A stretch of DNA of 64,000 bases from an uncultured Prochlorococcus sp. (lineage in GTDB: Bacteria > Cyanobacteriota > Cyanobacteriia > PCC-6307 > Cyanobiaceae): NCBI GenBank assembly GCA_902624085.1, contig CACNWD010000002.1, positions 24,166-88,165 of the forward strand, read 5' to 3'. The first letter of the stretch is position 1, and the number at the start of each line of letters is the position of its first letter. Both the position numbers and the translations under genes were made by a program. A model generated the notes under the pieces. That model had not been told where the DNA came from and did no database searches. It saw nothing but the letters and a program-made list of their open reading frames with translations. Positions 55,057-64,000 of this stretch are shown here, piece after piece.

Positions 55057-56643
55057 ATGTTTGAAAATTTAGATAGAGAAGAGAGATATCCATCTGTTTT
55101 AATAATGGACTTTGGATCGCAATACTCAGAGTTAATTGCTAGAAGAATAAGAGAAGCTAACGTCTTTTCTTTAGTAATAAGTCACCTTACTTCTTATGAT
55201 GAAATAAAAGAGTTAAACCCTAAAGGCATTATTTTAAGCGGTGGTCCAAGCTCAGTTTATGAGAATCATGCTCCCATATGTGATGAGGCAATCTTTAATT
55301 TAGGCATCCCAATCTTAGGTATATGTTATGGAATGCAATTAATGGTGCGACAGCTAGGAGGAGATGTTACTCCTGCTAAAAATAAAGCAGAATATGGAAG
55401 AGCACCTTTATTTATTGATAATGAAAATATACTTTTGAATAAAGTCAAAGACAAATCAATAATGTGGATGAGTCATGGCGATTCAATAAATCAATTACCA
55501 AGCAATTTTTTTCAAATAGCTCATACGGACAATACATCACATGCTGCGATAGCTAATGAAAAGCAAAACCTATTCGGTGTTCAATTTCATCCAGAAGTAG
55601 TTCATTCAGAATATGGATTTACAGTTATCAAGAATTTTGTACATAAAATATGTAATTGTAAAGCTGATTGGAACGCACAAACTTTTATTGAGGAAGCTAT
55701 ACCAATAATTCAAAAACAAGTAGGTAATAAAAAAGTTTTATTAGCTCTTTCAGGAGGAGTGGATTCGTCAACCTTAGCATTTTTATTACATCGAGCAATT
55801 GGAGATCAGCTGGTTTGTATGTTTATTGATCAAGGTTTTATGAGGAAAGGCGAACCAGAATTCCTAATGAATTTTTTTGATGAGAAATTTCACATAAGAG
55901 TTGAGTATATTAACTCTAGGGAACGTTTTATCAATAAACTCGAGGGAGTTACTGATCCTGAACAAAAGAGAAAAATTATAGGTACAGAATTTATTAGAGT
56001 TTTTGAAGAGGAAAGTAAAAGATTAGGACCCTTTGACTATTTAGCTCAAGGTACTCTCTATCCTGATGTAATCGAGAGTGCTGGAACAAACGTAGATCCA
56101 AAAACGGGTGAGAGAATAGCTGTAAAAATTAAAAGTCATCATAATGTCGGAGGTTTGCCAAAAGATTTACAATTTAAGTTAGTAGAGCCATTACGAAAAT
56201 TGTTTAAAGATGAGGTCCGAAAAGTAGGGAAAAATTTAGGTTTGCCAGATGAAATAGTAAAAAGACATCCTTTCCCAGGACCAGGCTTAGCTATAAGAAT
56301 ATTAGGCGAAGTATCTAATGAAAAACTTAACTGCTTGCGCGATGCTGATTGGATAGTTAGAGATGAAATTAAAAAAGCTGGCCTTTATAATGAGATTTGG
56401 CAAGCTTTTGCAGTTCTTTTACCAGTTAAAACTGTTGGAGTGATGGGAGATAAAAGGACATACGCATGGCCTATAGTTTTAAGGTGCGTTTCTAGTGAGG
56501 ATGGTATGACAGCAGATTGGTCAAAAGTTCCTTACCAAATCTTAGAGAAAATTTCAAATAGAATCGTGAATGAAGTGGAGCAAGTAAATAGAGTTGTATT
56601 TGATATAACAAGTAAACCACCAGGAACTATAGAGTGGGAGTAA
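55057..56643 (+). CDS. guaA: GMP synthase (glutamine-hydrolysing)
   Basis: [41 protein letters not shown], terminal [14 protein letters not shown]. Confidence 0.98.
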
Positions 56644-56681
56644 GAAATAGGCTATAAACCTAGTTATAGTCTGAAAAAGTA

Positions 56682-56692
56682 GGTTTCACGTG
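56682..56692 (+). repeat. GGTTTCACGTG direct repeat, candidate arm-type site (left end of element 1)
   Basis: Exact 11-mer also at 60583-60593 and 60594-60604. Confidence 0.75.
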
Positions 56693-56751
56693 GCCATCTT
56701 GATTTTTGTACATTCTTATAATTAATTATCTAAATACCGCAAGACTCTTAT

Positions 56752-58326
56752 TTAATCTAATTCTTGAATATGTTTTTTTATAGTTGAACATATTTTTTTT
56801 AAATTACATTTGAAAAATCCAGAATCTCCATCTTTATATTGTTCCAAATCACGATAGACTGCTTCCTCTACTTTTTGTGGATTCTGTGTAAGCCACTTTG
56901 CTGCAACAATAAATTTTGATTCCTCATTAAAAGCCATCCTGATTTGTTTTGCTCTAATTTCGGGGTTGTTAGCTATTCCTATTTTGAATTTGTCGGGAAT
57001 GGATTCATTCGATAAAACATAAATTTGGCTTTTTCTTTCAGATTTATTTTTTATTGTCATTTTATCTGAATTTAATTCTGTTGTATCGTATCTAAATTCG
57101 TATCTCGTAAATCTTTTGTCTACCTCAGCATTGGCATTTTCTTTTTGAATTTTCATAGCTATCCATACTGGATATATTCTTTTGAAACTTATAACTCCAC
57201 CTTCTAACAAAGATATTCGTTTCATTAAACCTTTACCGCCAGGAATCGCTTCAATTATATTTCTTTCAGGCAAAAATCTTTCATCAATATCAAGCGATTC
57301 CCACTCTTTTTTTGTTTTATTATTATTTAAAAATTCTCTAACTTCTATTAAAAGTTTATTTCTGGTAAGTAGTTCTGATGCTATTCCATCTTTAAATTCA
57401 AAATGATCTAATATGTTTTTGTGTTTTGTTTGCAAAAGTAATAATTGAGATTTTACCACTTTTGCATTATTTAATAATTCATCCCATTTATTGCTATCAA
57501 TATCAATATTTTTAGGAACTAAATTTTTTTGCTTAATTTCTTCTTCAGTATCTTTATAAACCTTTTTAAATAATTCTGTAACATAGTCCTCAAGGTTTGT
57601 ATCGCCATCTTTGGTTTTTATCTTCCAATTAATGTCTTGCTTATCAACTTTTTGAGTTTGTAAATTTAGATAATCAATAGTTGGAGTCTTACCAATACAC
57701 TTTGCGATTTTAAAGTTTATAAACAACTTGAAAATGTCGTTTTTCCTATTGTTATATTCAGGCCTTTGTAGGTTGCCAATAATAATATCTTCTTCAGAAT
57801 CAAAAATATTAACTCGGCCATAAAAATCTTCTTGATTAATATCATGAGTACCTGGCGCTAAAAGTTTTTCTTCAGTTTTTTTGTCAAAAAGTAGAAACCC
57901 ATTTACTTTTGGCCAAGGTAATCTAGGAATTGGCTGAAATTTATCAATGACATTCAGAATATTTATTAAATTATTTAAAGCTATAGTTCCTGTTGGTAAG
58001 GAAATTTTGTTCTCATAATATCCAAATAGATAATTAAAAAGCTTAAGACTTGGATGATTATTTAATTTTTCTAATAGTTCAATAATGTTGCCAAATTGTA
58101 TTTGTTGTGCCTCGAATTCTTTGCCTATTGCTTTGTATATAGTTAGATCCCCATCTAATTTAGTCAATAGGTTTATTAAAGAGTTCTTTACTTCAGAACT
58201 AAGACTATCGATTTTTTCTTGAAGCTCATCCTCTGTAAAATTAGCAAGATCAAAGTTTGATTTAATCGATTCTACTGAGGCTTGATTCATTATTAATAAG
58301 TGCAATTCTTTTTTAATTCTAATCAA
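56752..58326 (-). CDS. T5orf172/GIY-YIG-type domain protein with coiled-coil N-terminal region
   Basis: C-terminal QIYVLSNESIPDKFKIGIANNPEIRAKQIRMAF...KVEEAVYRDLEQYKDGDSGFFKCNLKKI. Confidence 0.7.
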   Translation of the reverse strand: MIRIKKELHLLIMNQASVESIKSNFDLANFTEDELQEKIDSLSSEVKNSLINLLTKLDGDLTIYKAIGKEFEAQQIQFGNIIELLEKLNNHPSLKLFNYLFGYYENKISLPTGTIALNNLINILNVIDKFQPIPRLPWPKVNGFLLFDKKTEEKLLAPGTHDINQEDFYGRVNIFDSEEDIIIGNLQRPEYNNRKNDIFKLFINFKIAKCIGKTPTIDYLNLQTQKVDKQDINWKIKTKDGDTNLEDYVTELFKKVYKDTEEEIKQKNLVPKNIDIDSNKWDELLNNAKVVKSQLLLLQTKHKNILDHFEFKDGIASELLTRNKLLIEVREFLNNNKTKKEWESLDIDERFLPERNIIEAIPGGKGLMKRISLLEGGVISFKRIYPVWIAMKIQKENANAEVDKRFTRYEFRYDTTELNSDKMTIKNKSERKSQIYVLSNESIPDKFKIGIANNPEIRAKQIRMAFNEESKFIVAAKWLTQNPQKVEEAVYRDLEQYKDGDSGFFKCNLKKICSTIKKHIQELD

Positions 58327-58379
58327 AAAATTGACAAATAAGCTTTATTTCAGCATATTTTGATAAAAAAATAATAAAT

Positions 58380-58506
58380 ATCGAGAAAACTCGATTGCAT
58401 AGCTCGAGAAAATTGTGCTATGCTTCAGGTCCAGGCCTTTGGGATTGCTTTAAAGTAAAAAAAACCCGTGAAGTTGACCAGAACTTCACAGGTTTTGCCC
58501 AAAGGC
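58380..58506 (+). other. Structured leader/ncRNA candidate: three consecutive hairpins
   Basis: ATCGAG-AAAA-CTCGAT (58380-58395); GCATAGC/GCTATGC (58397-58423); nested GCCTTTGGG/CCCAAAGGC (58435-58443, 58498-58506) enclosing AAAACCCGTGAAGTT/AACTTCACAGGTTTT (58461-58475, 58482-58496). Confidence 0.7.
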
Positions 58507-58535
58507 TAGTACATAACACCCTAGGAGGTATTACA

Positions 58536-58676
58536 TTGACTATTCAAGCACGATCTGATGAACCTGACAAAGAAAAACAGCGAAAACTAATTTCTTTTAA
58601 AGAATATTTAAAAATTAGAAATTATTTTTTAAGGACTGTTCATAGTCCTGATGCTTTTTATCAGATGGAGGATTAG
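58536..58676 (+). CDS. Small hypothetical protein, probable TTG start
   Basis: CTAGGAGGT Shine-Dalgarno at 58521-58529 before TTG at 58536; upstream part of supplied ORF (58395 on) is the hairpin region. Confidence 0.6.
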   Translation: MTIQARSDEPDKEKQRKLISFKEYLKIRNYFLRTVHSPDAFYQMED

Positions 58677-58679
58677 AAA

Positions 58680-59162
58680 GTGACTCATCCTGAACAAAAT
58701 AGTCTCTTTACGCAATCTAATGAAAGCGATAAGCACCTTTTACTTTGTCATGAAGGAATTTTAAAAGGTGTAAGTGAAAAGGTTTTGCGGAGTGACTATG
58801 GTGATTTCACCTTTGGATCAATTTATGATCCTCTCTCCGGTTCAATTGGAGATTGTCTTATTGATCTTGAGAAAGAATATACACTAACTTTAGCAAAATC
58901 TTTAATCGATCTAAATTTAAAGGTTGAACCTGGAAGTAATCATTTGAGATTAAGAGCACCAGTATTTCAATCTCTAGAGGTTCAAGAACTGGTCAATAAT
59001 TATTTCGCTAAAGAAGTAAATGAATCAAACGGACCAATATCTAGTAATCAATATCAGAAAGAAGACTACTTGGAAAACGTGATTATGAGTATTGCAGAGC
59101 AATGCAAATTAAGGGATATACCTGCTGCACTAGCCATATTTTTACCAACTAATAAAAATTAA
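58680..59162 (+). CDS. Hypothetical protein
   Basis: 160-aa ORF, GTG start preceded by GGAGG; follows the 46-aa ORF closely. Confidence 0.7.
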   Translation: MTHPEQNSLFTQSNESDKHLLLCHEGILKGVSEKVLRSDYGDFTFGSIYDPLSGSIGDCLIDLEKEYTLTLAKSLIDLNLKVEPGSNHLRLRAPVFQSLEVQELVNNYFAKEVNESNGPISSNQYQKEDYLENVIMSIAEQCKLRDIPAALAIFLPTNKN

Positions 59163-59183
59163 ATTTTTAAAAAATACTAAATA

Positions 59184-59906
59184 ATGGAATTTTCACATTT
59201 CAAGAAAAAAGCCAAGGGTTTCGAATGCCTTGGTCCTAGCTCAGTAGCTGAGGCTGCTAGTTACTCTAATTCATGCAATTTATCCTTATGGATGAATACG
59301 AGATATAAAGCTCCTGTAGATCATGAATTTTTAGCAAAATGGGAATTAAGGCATGCTGCTGTTTTGAACCATTTAAAATTGAATATTTTAGATAAGTTTC
59401 CACATGCAGAAATTGATATGGAATTACCATTACAATCCGTAAATTTATGTGGAAATACTTTATTTGGTGTCCCTGATGCAATATGCAGATTTCCAAATGG
59501 TCAATTAATGGTTTGCGATGCGAAATCTGGCAAGAAGCGAGTCTCTCACTGGATTCAGGTCGGTTTGTATGGTCATATGATTCAAGGTTTGGCAAGAGCA
59601 AAAGGTGCACCTATTCCAGATATCTATGGTTTTGCACTTTGCTATGGAAACTTTGATCAAGAAGGAGGATTTAATAAAAATAATATTGAATTTCTTACGA
59701 TTACTGGTCCTCAATCATTAGCTGAGGTTCTTCCAGAACCTACTCGCAAACGTATTCGAGAAATACTTTCAATCTCTGGTAGTGATGACTTGCCACTCGC
59801 TAACCCTAATTCTCAAAATTGTCGTTTTTGTAAGTGGAAAATTGGATGTGATCAAGCGTTTCAAGGGTATGGAAACAAAGTTGTTGATGTTAGTGAATTT
59901 TTTTAA
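59184..59906 (+). CDS. PD-(D/E)XK nuclease, Cas4/RecB-like, with C-terminal cysteine cluster
   Basis: GVPDAICRF ... MVCDAKSGK ... WIQVGLYGHMI; C-terminal CRFCKWKIGC. Confidence 0.75.
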   Translation: MEFSHFKKKAKGFECLGPSSVAEAASYSNSCNLSLWMNTRYKAPVDHEFLAKWELRHAAVLNHLKLNILDKFPHAEIDMELPLQSVNLCGNTLFGVPDAICRFPNGQLMVCDAKSGKKRVSHWIQVGLYGHMIQGLARAKGAPIPDIYGFALCYGNFDQEGGFNKNNIEFLTITGPQSLAEVLPEPTRKRIREILSISGSDDLPLANPNSQNCRFCKWKIGCDQAFQGYGNKVVDVSEFF

Positions 59907-59914
59907 GGAAAGTT

Positions 59915-60241
59915 ATGAATTTATCTATAGCTGAAGAATTTTTAAGATTTAAAAAGTTATTTAATATCAATATTGTTTCCAATAAAGAATCAATATTAGA
60001 TTTAAATAATAAATCTTTTAAAAATAATCAAGAAATTAAGAGTTTAGAAAATAAAGTTTATGCTCTTACCTATAAGATCAAAGGATTACAGGATCAAATT
60101 CTTATACTTGAAGAGAAGTTTTTAAATCTAAATGAAAAGAATCAAGATGCTGCTATTAGACAGTTGCTAGAAAAACTTGATAAAAATATTGTCGGAAAAT
60201 TTATTGAAAAAGGAGGTACAAGTACAAATGGAAAATCTTAG
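59915..60241 (+). CDS. Coiled-coil hypothetical protein
   Basis: NNQEIKSLENKVYALTYKIKGLQDQILILEEKFLNL heptad-like. Confidence 0.65.
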   Translation: MNLSIAEEFLRFKKLFNINIVSNKESILDLNNKSFKNNQEIKSLENKVYALTYKIKGLQDQILILEEKFLNLNEKNQDAAIRQLLEKLDKNIVGKFIEKGGTSTNGKS

Positions 60242-60518
60242 ATCATTATCAATACAGATTAGAAATGATCAATTTAAAAAATTAAAAGAAATGTCTAAAC
60301 CAGGCGTATCAATTTCTCAATTAATTAGGACAGCAATAGATGCTATTCAAAAACCTCTGTCTCCAAGTGTCTCTTTTCAAAAATCTTCTTACAGTGAATA
60401 TGAATCAAACTCAATAATAAATCTTAAACAAATCCATGCTCTTACTACTCTTAAAAAATATGAGTTAATAACTGAGCAAGAATATATCAATATAAAAGAT
60501 AGATTAGATTTGCGATGA
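60228..60518 (+). CDS. Ribbon-helix-helix-like small protein with SHOCT-like C-terminus
   Basis: MENLRSLSIQIRNDQFKKLKEMSKPGVSISQLIRTAIDAI; ALTTLKKYELITEQEYINIKDRL; GGAGG at 60212-60216. Confidence 0.65.
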   Translation: MENLRSLSIQIRNDQFKKLKEMSKPGVSISQLIRTAIDAIQKPLSPSVSFQKSSYSEYESNSIINLKQIHALTTLKKYELITEQEYINIKDRLDLR

Positions 60519-60582
60519 AAATATTTTCATAACTGAAGATATTTTCAACCAAATTTATTATAAATGTAGGTAATCTATACGA

Positions 60583-60604
60583 GGTTTCACGTGGGTTTCA
60601 CGTG
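60583..60604 (+). repeat. Tandem GGTTTCACGTG x2 (11-bp period), candidate arm-type sites (right end of element 1)
   Basis: Two abutting identical 11-mers, same as at 56682-56692. Confidence 0.8.
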
Positions 60605-60641
60605 GGAAAGTACGTGTTATAATATGCTCAAATACATTGCT

Positions 60642-60730
60642 ATGACTGTGTTTTTATATTCAACTTTTGGCGGTACTATTGAGTGGGAATAGTCCAAGAG
60701 TAGAGAACCCAGTTATAACTTGAAAAACGT
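60642..60730 (+). repeat. guaA 3'-end-like copy 2 (candidate attachment core)
   Basis: Reads VFLYSTFGGTIEWE* versus gua[16 protein letters not shown]; followed by AACCCAGTTATAACTTGAAAAACGT resembling AACCTAGTTATAGTCTGAAAAAGT after guaA. Confidence 0.72.
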
Positions 60731-60731
60731 G

Positions 60732-60812
60732 TGCTCACCCGAAGATCACCCGTTATTTTTTTTACCTATTTGCAATGGATCTGACGTGATCCTGCTCACC
60801 CTTGTCTCACCC
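60732..60812 (+). repeat. TCACCC-containing repeats, two pairs with 11-bp period (left end of element 2)
   Basis: TCACCC at 60735/60746 and 60796/60807. Confidence 0.75.
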
Positions 60813-60896
60813 AGAGCATCATGACTGTCTCTATGGAGAAGTCGTGAAAGTCTATGATTCTCTACAGATGATATATTTATAGAAATAAATTTTGTT

Positions 60897-61415
60897 ATGA
60901 AAGATAATAACTTATTCTATGAAGAAGTTTTGTCAAATTCTAAGTCAGTTGACTTTGATCATATGATTGCAGGTTCTACTTGCATAACCACGCCCTCTAC
61001 AACTTCGAGTGGAAAACCTTCTACGAAAGAGATATGTTTTGATGATTTCGCTGGTGATTCATCTGGTCCAATTATCATTGGTGCTTCATTGGGAGTATTT
61101 ACGATTATTATATTGATGATTTTATTGATAAAGAAAAATAATAATAGTTTTGGATCGGTCAAAAGTGATTCTGATAATAAAAGGTTTTCATCAAACGAGC
61201 AAATATCAGATTCCTCATTAACTGATCTTCTTGAAAAATTAAAAAAATCTTACTTTCCGAAGTTGTCTATCGCAGAGAGTTTTCTTAAGGGGAATTATGT
61301 AATTCTTAAAGACTTGTCTGGCAATATTATTAGTGAAAGTAATATCATAGGAAATTATTTAATTTTAAATGATATAAATGGCGAAGTTATTGCAGAAGTA
61401 AAATTTAAAAATTAA
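60897..61415 (+). CDS. Single-pass membrane protein with novel C-terminal domain
   Basis: TM GPIIIGASLGVFTIIILMILLI; C-terminal FPKLSIAESFLKGNYVILKDLSGNIIS shared with the next gene. Confidence 0.65.
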   Translation: MKDNNLFYEEVLSNSKSVDFDHMIAGSTCITTPSTTSSGKPSTKEICFDDFAGDSSGPIIIGASLGVFTIIILMILLIKKNNNSFGSVKSDSDNKRFSSNEQISDSSLTDLLEKLKKSYFPKLSIAESFLKGNYVILKDLSGNIISESNIIGNYLILNDINGEVIAEVKFKN

Positions 61416-61430
61416 AAAGGTTCCTAATAA

Positions 61431-62129
61431 ATGATTTCTTTTGCATTACCTCTTTTATTGTTATTTATCTGCGTAGCAATATTTCCTAAGTTAAAACCTC
61501 TTAATCGAATTTTACTAATATTATTTGAAGTCTTTTACGTATTCTTATTACAAATATTACTAATATATTCTCTCCCCTTAGCATTGTATATACTGATTTC
61601 TTTGTGTAATATCTTGTTTCATGCAAAAGTTTTCAGAGTAAGATTTACTAGAAGCAAATTAATATTTCTAATAATATTTGAATTTATTCTATTAGTAATA
61701 AGTTTTAATCAAATAATTTTTAAATATGGATCAATATTTTATTTAAGTAATATTTTCTTGATACCAGTTTTTCTTTCTGCCAGATTTATATCTAATAGGG
61801 TTATTTATAAGAGTTTATTAAAGACTATTCGAAGTTCTTTGATAATTGGTTCAACTAATCTCCAAAAATTTGGTGAATCTAAAATAATAGGATCCTTGTC
61901 TAATAATTTATTAGGGACCAATCAAAATTCTTTAAGAATTGGTTCAACTAATCTCCAAAGATTTAATGAATCTGAATTGATAAGTTTTATAGATAAAATT
62001 AAAGAAGGAGATTTCCCAAAAGCATCTATTTCAAAAAGTTCAATAGATGGAGATTATGTAATAGTTAGAGATTTAAATGGTGTTGTTTTATCTCAAATAA
62101 AAATTTCTGAAGTTAGTAAATATTTATAA
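61431..62129 (+). CDS. Multi-pass membrane protein with the same C-terminal domain
   Basis: Four or more hydrophobic segments; C-terminal FPKASISKSSIDGDYVIVRDLNGVVLS. Confidence 0.65.
   Translation: MISFALPLLLLFICVAIFPKLKPLNRILLILFEVFYVFLLQILLIYSLPLALYILISLCNILFHAKVFRVRFTRSKLIFLIIFEFILLVISFNQIIFKYGSIFYLSNIFLIPVFLSARFISNRVIYKSLLKTIRSSLIIGSTNLQKFGESKIIGSLSNNLLGTNQNSLRIGSTNLQRFNESELISFIDKIKEGDFPKASISKSSIDGDYVIVRDLNGVVLSQIKISEVSKYL
61835..61976 (+). repeat. 93-bp-offset tandem duplication in the multi-pass protein gene
   Basis: TTCTTTgatAATTGGTTCAACTAATCTCCAAAaATTTggTGAATCTaAA recurs 93 bp later. Confidence 0.85.
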
Positions 62130-62175
62130 ATATACTTTAATAATCTAAGTTGAATTGTACGAATTCTTTACGGAT

Positions 62176-62208
62176 TAATCGTTTTTTTGAATAGTTCAAA
62201 TACGATTA
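62176..62208. terminator. Hairpin, possible bidirectional terminator or recombination structure
   Basis: TAATCGT...TTTGAA-TAG-TTCAAA.ACGATTA inverted repeat. Confidence 0.5.
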
Positions 62209-62220
62209 TTGTCAGATATC

Positions 62221-62253
62221 CATGCTCACCTCATGCTCACCTCATGCTCACCC
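62221..62253 (+). repeat. CATGCTCACCT x3 tandem (11-bp period), candidate arm-type sites (right end of element 2)
   Basis: catgctcacct catgctcacct catgctcaccc. Confidence 0.85.
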
Positions 62254-62298
62254 AAGAAATGTCTGTTAGTATGACCCAACTATCCGTTGCAATAACTG

Positions 62299-62343
62299 AT
62301 GTTTTCTCTTTCTTTAAGACCGAATACCATTGACTGGGAATAG
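62299..62343 (+). repeat. guaA 3'-end-like copy 3 (candidate attachment core)
   Basis: Reads MFSLSLRPNTIDWE*, compare gua[15 protein letters not shown]. Confidence 0.6.
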
Positions 62344-62475
62344 TTTTCCAGGTCAAAATGTAGTCATATTCGTATTCTTGCGGCTTTTCGCCAATTTTTT
62401 TGTCACTCTGTCATCGTTTCTATAGAGAAATTATGAAGCAAAGTTTTTTCCTCTATTCATATTATTATTTGTTGA

Positions 62476-63942
62476 TTAATATTTAAGGTCTTTATATTTA
62501 TCCTTTCCAGTAATTATTTCCATAGCAGGTCTTAGCATCTCCTTATAGTTTTCCCATCCATCTATTGATTTTGAATTTATTGGCGAACGAACTTGAACAT
62601 TGCTTGCTGTAGCAATTGAACGCGTATTGAGATTTGGTGATAAATATTGATCGTCCCACTCCCAACCTAACCAAGAGATCAAAGATTTAATCTCTGGAGT
62701 GGGATTACTGACTAGTGAATCGTAATGCAAGTCATATATTTTTGATCTAAATCTCTTTTTATATTCAGTCATAATTTCCTCTTGATCTAAATAAACTTTT
62801 GCACAGTCAACAAGTGAAGAAGAAAAGTAGTTCCCTTTAGCAAAATTTGCTCGGTAAATTGAAAGAATATTATCTAAAGGATTTCTAAAACAATGAATGA
62901 TTTTTGCATTTGGAATTTGATTAGAGATTATACCTGCATATTGATAGTTGTATAACCATTTATTAATTGTTATGCTTTTTTGATCGTCAACATTTGCTTT
63001 TCTCAAATATAGTTTTGCAAGATTGTGTTTCTTTTTTAAGAATGATTCTTCAAGGATATTAATTTCTCCTAACTCATACGCATTACTATTCATACCAAGA
63101 ATTGACTCAGTTAATGTGGTTCCACTTCTTGGCATCCCTACAATAAAAATACTTTCAGGAAAGTCTTTAATTTTTTTTTCTTGAGCGGTTTTTTGGTTCT
63201 CTAACAGTAAAAGTTGTGATTGATTTAGTAAATATCTACAATTAGATGGATAAAGATTTAATTTGAGATTATTCGCTAATTGGAGATATTCCGAACTTTC
63301 TGCATATTTTTTTTCTTTATGATAAATATTTGATTTTGCAAAATAAATATAAACTTTTTCTTTTTGTGATTTATTTTTTAGCAAATTTTTAGATGCCAAT
63401 TGATTTTGCCAGCTTTGACTTTTATCTGAGTATTGAAAAGTTGATAAGTAAAAATATGCCATCACAAAATTGGGATCTAGTGAAATAGTTTTTACATAAA
63501 ATGATTCTGCTTCTTTTAATTTTCCAAGACTTTGATATAAAATTCAAAGGTTGCAATGCGCCTCCGCAAAATCAGGACTTAATTCAATTGCGTTTTTATA
63601 GAATGATTCTGCCTCTTTTAATTTTCCAACATCACTCAATAAATTGCCAAGGTTGCAATGCGCCTCCGCAAAATCAGGATTTAATTCAATTGCGTTTCTA
63701 AAAAGTGATTCTGCTTCTTTTAATTTTCCGAGGCCCTTTAATATTGAACCATAATTAGAAAATACTCTTTCATCCTTAAAACCTTGTTTTATGAAATATT
63801 TATAATATTCAGATGCTTTTGAAATATTACCTTTTACATGAAATTCTGCTGCATGATTAATTATCTGTTCTTTAGAAGGTATTTTGTGAAAGTTTCTTAT
63901 AAGTTCCTTTTTGGGTTTATTATCCTTTCCAAAACCTCTCAT
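62476..63942 (-). pseudogene. TPR-sulfotransferase gene interrupted by an in-frame TGA at 63544-63546
   Basis: ORFs 63544-63942 and 62476-63465 are in the same frame; TPR reading continues across the TGA; PRSGTT and RNPLDNILS sulfotransferase motifs. Confidence 0.72.
63547..63731 (-). repeat. Near-identical 102-bp (34-aa TPR) tandem repeats
   Basis: TTGCAATGCGCCTCCGCAAAATCAGGAyTTAATTCAATTGCGTTT at 63551 and 63653. Confidence 0.9.
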
Positions 63943-64000
63943 TCATAATCAAATCCTCAAACCTTATTATACGAAGTATTGATTACTATTATAAGAAGTA

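Follow-up and report, generated by a model that had tools for sequence, protein, structure and literature searches.

Tandem integrative elements at the 3' end of guaA in Prochlorococcus, with integrase-less members and integrase-bearing relatives

We analysed a 64,000-nucleotide stretch of DNA from an uncultured Prochlorococcus (hereafter the window), in which guaA, the gene of GMP synthase, is followed by two complete tandem elements of 4.05 and 1.65 kb and by the left end of a third, which runs off the contig, the contig ending where the window ends (position 64000). The 3' end of guaA is very probably the attachment site of a family of picocyanobacterial elements with tyrosine integrases (Int), the window holding integrase-less relatives that would be moved by the integrase of a related element. 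The features observed directly are the attachment cores, the element ends, the empty sites, the horizontal spread and the integrases at the guaA site. The source assembly is a fragmented and incomplete genome (1.06 Mb, 45 contigs, 68% complete), and its guaA is nearest to that of HNLC1 among named records (97% at the amino acid level). The target gene, the copies of its tail and the elements between them are as follows; L and G numbers are our handles for records.

55057-56643, + strand: guaA (GMP synthase), the target gene; open reading frame (ORF) intact to GTIEWE*
56626-56643, + strand: core copy 1, 3' end of guaA and left boundary of element 1; exact core match
56644-60674, no strand: element 1, 4049 bp core to core, without integrase (gene and family searches)
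60675-60692, + strand: core copy 2; exact core match
60693-62325, no strand: element 2, 1651 bp core to core, without integrase; arm repeats TGCTCACCC near 60732 and 60793; both ends homologous to integrase-bearing L150
62326-62343, + strand: core copy 3 (NTIDWE*); exact core match
62344-64000, no strand: start of element 3; left end like those of L039, L148 and integrase-bearing L051 (end comparison); right end beyond the contig

The initial annotation had reported three copies of the guaA tail, and a search of the whole 1.06-Mb assembly for ACYATWGASTGGGARTA finds no exact match besides these. When up to three mismatches are allowed, the window contains six tail matches against 1.6 expected, a number reached in none of 100 shuffles, which confirms that the tails go beyond shuffled sequence. 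Copy 2 differs from the guaA tail only synonymously, as had been noted, while the changes in copy 3 are not synonymous, because NTIDWE carries G>N and E>D. The proposal that the copies derive from different guaA alleles is better replaced by a reading in which they are attachment cores that belong to the elements themselves and remain compatible with GTIEWE*; the terminus KPPGTIEWE* is present in all 80 guaA genes of the related loci. Across these 80 loci, 33 exact cores occur in the 617 kb downstream of guaA and none in the 874 kb upstream, and four scrambled core patterns gave no match in the same survey. Since an element-like left end directly follows copy 3, at least three elements are present. 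The initial annotation was therefore right about tandem integrative elements, for which empty sites, restored flank spacing, swapped cargo and integrase-bearing relatives at guaA all speak, and short in counting two of them.

The related Prochlorococcus loci were compared by the interval between guaA and the next host gene downstream, a PD-(D/E)XK-type gene used as flank marker, which is complete in 60 of the 80. The site is empty in 20 of these 60, with 41-76 bp from the guaA stop to the flank gene. A further 19 are occupied and carry one to three additional exact cores. The remaining 21 have longer intervals without an exact further core, most of which hold a core with one to three mismatches; this core often lies some 70 bp ahead of the flank gene (L050 at 2186 of 2257 bp, L080 at 6543 of 6613). 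For most occupied loci, the distance from the last core to the flank gene is about the same as that between guaA and the flank gene in empty sites. Extra DNA lies behind guaA in 40 of the 60 complete intervals, and its genes include some for restriction-modification, surface modification and the cell wall. In empty sites, guaA ends in GAGTAA (last codon plus stop) in 16 of 20 and in GAG plus TAA or TAG in 19 of 20, with TGA in none, whereas TGA is the stop in 26 of the 60 remaining guaA loci (counts that ignore genome kinship). This variation outside empty sites agrees with elements supplying the last codons themselves.

The layout is regular: a left end stands behind each core and a right end before each next core. 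The similarity that had been noticed behind the stop codons of the first two copies corresponds to a common left-end block (AACC.AGTTATA), and that before copies 2 and 3 to a common right-end block (TTGC.AT.ACTG). In the window, the ends were delimited by end comparison:

56644-56693, + strand: left end of element 1; block AACCTAGTTATA and one arm repeat AGGTTTCACGTGG (56681-56693)
60582-60674, + strand: right end of element 1; arm repeats GGTTTCACGTGGGTTTCACGTGG and block ATTGCTATGACTGTGTTTT; matches L060 and integrase-bearing L018
62223-62325, + strand: right end of element 2; three TGCTCACC repeats (offsets -103, -92, -81) and block TTGCAATAACTG

In a set of 41 elements, which contains related and hence non-independent members and from which two automatic core calls inside int genes (L018, L080) were excluded as false, the left and right ends of one element have 171 9-mers in common, against 36 (sd 14) in shuffled pairings (0 of 20,000 permutations). 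The common words are direct repeats 11 bp apart. Measured from the left core, they typically lie at +56/+67 and often at +117/+128; measured from the right core, they typically lie at -92/-81. Their sequence varies between elements (GGTTTCACG, GGTTTCCCG, GGTTACACG, TGCTCACCC, GTTTGTTGCG and others). Judged from these sequences, the ends follow a rigid layout resembling that of lambda attP, with arms that are matched within an element and different between elements. Ten mini-elements of 139-148 bp carry no gene and are made up of one arm set between a left and a right end. When the first left arm of a full-size element is joined to a right arm, the predicted length falls within 138-150 bp in 20 of 25 cases and is frequently 148 exactly; element 1 of the window is among them. 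By length and sequence, the mini-elements therefore look like products of arm-by-arm deletion.

As the initial annotation had stated, no integrase was found in elements 1 or 2 by Pfam, PHROG and homology searches, nor any known transfer gene. The suggested search for tyrosine recombinases beside guaA tails found them directly after guaA in Prochlorococcus and in other picocyanobacterial genera. In Prochlorococcus, an integrase lies about 220-240 bp behind the guaA core in L017, L018, L051 and L080, and about 1.0 kb behind it in G009 (L150); G021, G027 and G096 appear to duplicate the records L017, L080 and L018, and G078, apparently equal to L007, has a broken integrase remnant. In the other genera, it directly follows guaA in G275, G385, G210, G208 and G413, the G275 copy having an internal stop and the G413 match being partial. 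The guaA integrases form one clade (support 99/99 in a tree of 25 proteins), and the catalytic part matches PF00589 in L148, L149, L150 and L051. An AlphaFold model (pLDDT 63) is similar to the Tn1549 and lambda integrases with moderate confidence. Both ends are present in integrase-bearing elements of 8.3 kb (L018/L148), 8.6 kb (L150), 9.1 kb (L226), 7.7 kb (L227) and 9.0 kb (L229), and the element of L080 is about 6.5 kb long, with a one-mismatch right core. The backbone of L150 and L229 comprises Int, a Rep-like protein, a 327-aa-like protein, a DUF5906-type helicase and a serine resolvase; by the searches used, other integrase-bearing elements are without one or more of these genes, the 314-327-aa protein and the DUF5906/SF3-like helicase being among the variable ones. 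The Rep is putatively of HUH type, given a PF23343 match below the cut-off and an invariant HxH; as to an HUH fold, its structure model is poor (pLDDT 49), the PDB comparison was uninformative and no solved structure was matched by sequence. No conjugation module was recognised among the proteins scanned from integrase-bearing elements, and ARAGORN searches of the window and of L148-L150 returned no tRNA.

A more distant integrase family is found about 10-13 kb downstream of guaA in L173, L175 and L176 (G140, G081, G111). It perhaps marks a second integration site. In the stretches examined, no tRNA lies near the more distant integrases.

The window ends were compared with those of integrase-bearing relatives, with mononucleotide shuffles as null. 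Both ends of element 2 match those of L150, with scores of 80 and 56 against null maxima of 14.5 and 16.5. Element 1 has mainly its right end in common with other elements, and the interiors of elements with matching ends are unrelated. The right end of element 1 scores 63.5 with integrase-bearing L018 and 64 with L007, which carries the integrase remnant (null maximum 19). The case of element 3 is weaker, its left end scoring 26.5-30 with L039, L148 and integrase-bearing L051 against a null of 20. Element 1 and L060 also agree at 98% identity across 111 bp of their right ends, and their interiors do not align. L020 and L036 share 3.4 kb at 98.2% identity, against 88.5% for their guaA, with the segment at different array positions, and L031 and L075 have 4.6 kb in common at 97.1% identity, their guaA genes being 88.7% identical. 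Element DNA that is more alike than guaA supports horizontal spread and swapped cargo, to which homologous recombination may contribute.

In the mechanism that we infer, the integrase would recombine a core inside the last guaA codons, containing GAGTGGGA. The incoming element would bring a new tail and stop codon and shift the former tail downstream as a tandem copy, so that GTIEWE* would be kept. Integrase-less relatives would retain the core and attP-like ends with other cargo and be moved by the integrase of a related element, and recombination from arm to arm would drop or swap cargo. Mobilisation may occur in trans or, once a neighbouring element has integrated, in cis, and the integrase-bearing elements at guaA in related genomes are the likely helpers. 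The N-terminal domain of Int could read the arm repeats. Among eight guaA integrases, for which the arms were positioned manually, arm similarity rises with N-terminal identity (Mantel rho 0.58, p 0.0014); the corresponding values are 0.14 (p 0.30) for the core-binding part and 0.29 (p 0.12) for the catalytic part, and the difference between N-terminal and catalytic identity does not correlate with arm similarity (-0.02). The modelled N-terminus has a small beta-sheet plus a helix, as in arm-binding domains. Taken together, this is suggestive only. We also consider, tentatively and with more doubt than belief, that the site combines one shared address with private codes: a single essential-gene core for all elements, and lineage-specific arm repeats at rigid positions read by each element's own integrase N-terminal domain. 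If so, many elements could stack at one site yet be separately recognised, and the matching direct repeats would allow cargo to be dropped, leaving mobile shells of 139-148 bp, and replaced.

Several observations weigh against the attachment-site explanation as a whole. The left end of element 1 is best matched by integrase-less elements (41 versus 19.5). No guaA-type integrase was found elsewhere in the 68%-complete source assembly, which thus shows no helper of its own, and the Prochlorococcus sample has only about five independent integrase loci. No excised form was seen, and no IMG/VR or phage record contained the Int, the nuclease or the tested ends. The longer intervals of L006, L015 and L081 have no clear second core, that of HNLC1 (L006) containing no tail copy within its 742 bp. 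The only recombinase found in the source genome, a 387-aa protein on contig 14, was not taken as the helper, because it lies beside a cobO-like gene and has relatives of about 389 aa in many genomes.

It is unlikely, though the best of the alternatives, that the integrase-less segments are decayed remnants which are no longer mobile site-specifically and persist vertically or by homologous exchange via guaA, the downstream gene or the common ends. The integrase remnant of L007/G078 and the many mutated cores would suit such decay, and homologous exchange could produce common ends with unrelated interiors; however, ends and arm spacing are precise in elements without int, a near-identical segment occupies different array positions in L020 and L036, and intact Int elements stand at guaA in several genera. 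Carriage as phage satellites or prophage remnants in helper-phage virions is more improbable still: integrase, putative Rep and SF3-like helicase together make a backbone like that of satellite replicons in general, but none of the proteins scanned was recognised as a capsid, terminase or packaging protein, and the viral records mentioned above are without the sequences sought. Chance matches, or guaA tandem duplications without mobile elements, could appeal only to a repeat of just 18 bp and are refuted by the shuffles (0/100), the core counts (33 versus 0 versus 0), the empty sites, the restored spacing and the integrases at guaA.

Some IMG/VR contigs (L240, L248, L262, L269, L271, L280, L284) contain most of a guaA gene that is only 48-57% identical to that of the window and that ends at the core; these contigs are likely to be proviruses inserted at guaA of other bacteria.

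Few photosynthetic organisms are as abundant as Prochlorococcus, and the routes by which its small genomes acquire genes are still an open question. At guaA, deletion series and empty control sites occur naturally and the att design is compact, which makes helper use and arm specificity accessible to direct tests. These are picocyanobacterial integrative elements with integrase-less relatives resembling cis-mobilisable elements (CIMEs), at a target and in an array type already known elsewhere; the open-access literature, which was the scope of the search as distinct from subscription literature, yielded no paper tying Prochlorococcus to guaA islands. By analogy, the arrangement corresponds to that of the CIMEs and microCIMEs accreted with integrative and conjugative elements (ICEs) or integrative and mobilisable elements (IMEs) at a 3' gene end in Streptococcus (PMC7563491, PMC5704250). 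Common to both are tandem arrays at a 3' gene end and cargo elements with att sites and without recombination genes, and the gene-less units are of 130-220 bp in Streptococcus and 139-148 bp here. Elements 1 and 2 would work in the manner of CIMEs: att sites lie on either side of them, they stand in a tandem row with relatives, and they lack integration genes and known transfer genes. CIMEs derive from conjugative elements, whereas the integrase-bearing partners that share ends with the window elements show no recognised conjugation module, their Rep being putative.

Islands, ICEs and IMEs integrated in guaA are described in other bacteria, such as ICERspD18B and GIsul2 (Song et al. 2012, as cited in PMC7775301), with the same guaA 3' target and the same GAGTGGGA core. 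In the window too, insertion is within GAGTGGGA at the guaA 3' end; a tyrosine integrase is present in relatives and not in the window elements. Those islands have P4-type integrases, AlpA and mostly resistance cargo, whereas the integrases here form a separate picocyanobacterial clade, in a tree without P4-type integrases; no AlpA was noticed among the ORFs read, with no search aimed at it. Tycheposons, as cited in PMC10872708 and PMC10187409, are likewise cargo-carrying tyrosine-recombinase islands of Prochlorococcus, located at seven tRNA genes, in contrast to the protein gene guaA. Elements with the cluster158946 integrase, often with a small serine recombinase nearby, lie beside tRNA-Phe or tRNA-Cys (PMC10187409). 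Compared by description, they too combine a tyrosine integrase with picocyanobacterial hosts, at a tRNA-adjacent site rather than at guaA. SCC-type (staphylococcal cassette chromosome) arrays at rlmH of staphylococci also stand in tandem, rebuild the 3' end of a housekeeping gene and include recombinase-less members, but use large serine recombinases.

The cargo of the window elements is as follows.

56752-58326, - strand: element 1; protein with C-terminal T5orf172/MUG113 domain (GIY-YIG-like; Pfam PF10544, PF13455), start codon uncertain
58680-59162, + strand: element 1; 160-aa protein, function unassigned, 61% identical in L058 (sequence comparison)
59184-59906, + strand: element 1; PD-(D/E)XK nuclease-superfamily protein (PF12705), 79% identical in L058
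59915-60241, + strand: element 1; 108-aa protein, probably a coiled coil (from sequence)
60228-60518, + strand: element 1; ribbon-helix-helix-like protein (PF12651 below cut-off), ATG at 60228 (listed ORF 60177-60518), 59% identical in L058
60897-61415, + strand: element 2; 172-aa protein, no Pfam or PHROG family matched
61431-62129, + strand: element 2; 232-aa protein with a C-terminal region related (38% over 50 aa; sequence comparison) to the 172-aa protein
62476-63942, - strand: element 3; TPR plus sulfotransferase gene (ORFs, family search)

The cargo set of element 1 (the T5orf172, 160-aa, PD-(D/E)XK, 108-aa and ribbon-helix-helix proteins) is found again in the guaA element of L058. Relatives of this gene set also occur away from guaA in other genomes (L200:9087-12288, also L199 and L201), and the module is therefore carried by other islands too. 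PADLOC matches to defence systems were weak and were not counted as evidence of such a role. An inverted repeat, ATCGAGAAAACTCGAT, lies between the divergent genes of element 1 (58379-58394) and is a possible operator. A strong nested RNA hairpin is found just upstream of the rightward genes (58433-58508, z -3.6), and L058 has a hairpin-like leader with a different inner sequence at the equivalent place; an Rfam search returned nothing credible.

The TPR-sulfotransferase gene is the commonest cargo at the guaA site. The window copy has an in-frame stop where relatives such as L148 have a single reading frame, and may be a pseudogene or reflect a sequencing error. Among other cargo, a 7-kb guaA element has an MreB gene and an EPSP-synthase-family (MurA-like) gene (L008:12035-15455, with similar DNA in L025 and L036). 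Type I restriction-modification genes are found in L064:12298-17152, and L050:11816-13550 encodes a restriction-enzyme-like protein next to a D12-class adenine methylase. Downstream of guaA in L023 (14801-18932), translations judged by eye include several pilin-like proteins with a prepilin N-terminus and a prepilin-peptidase-like protein.

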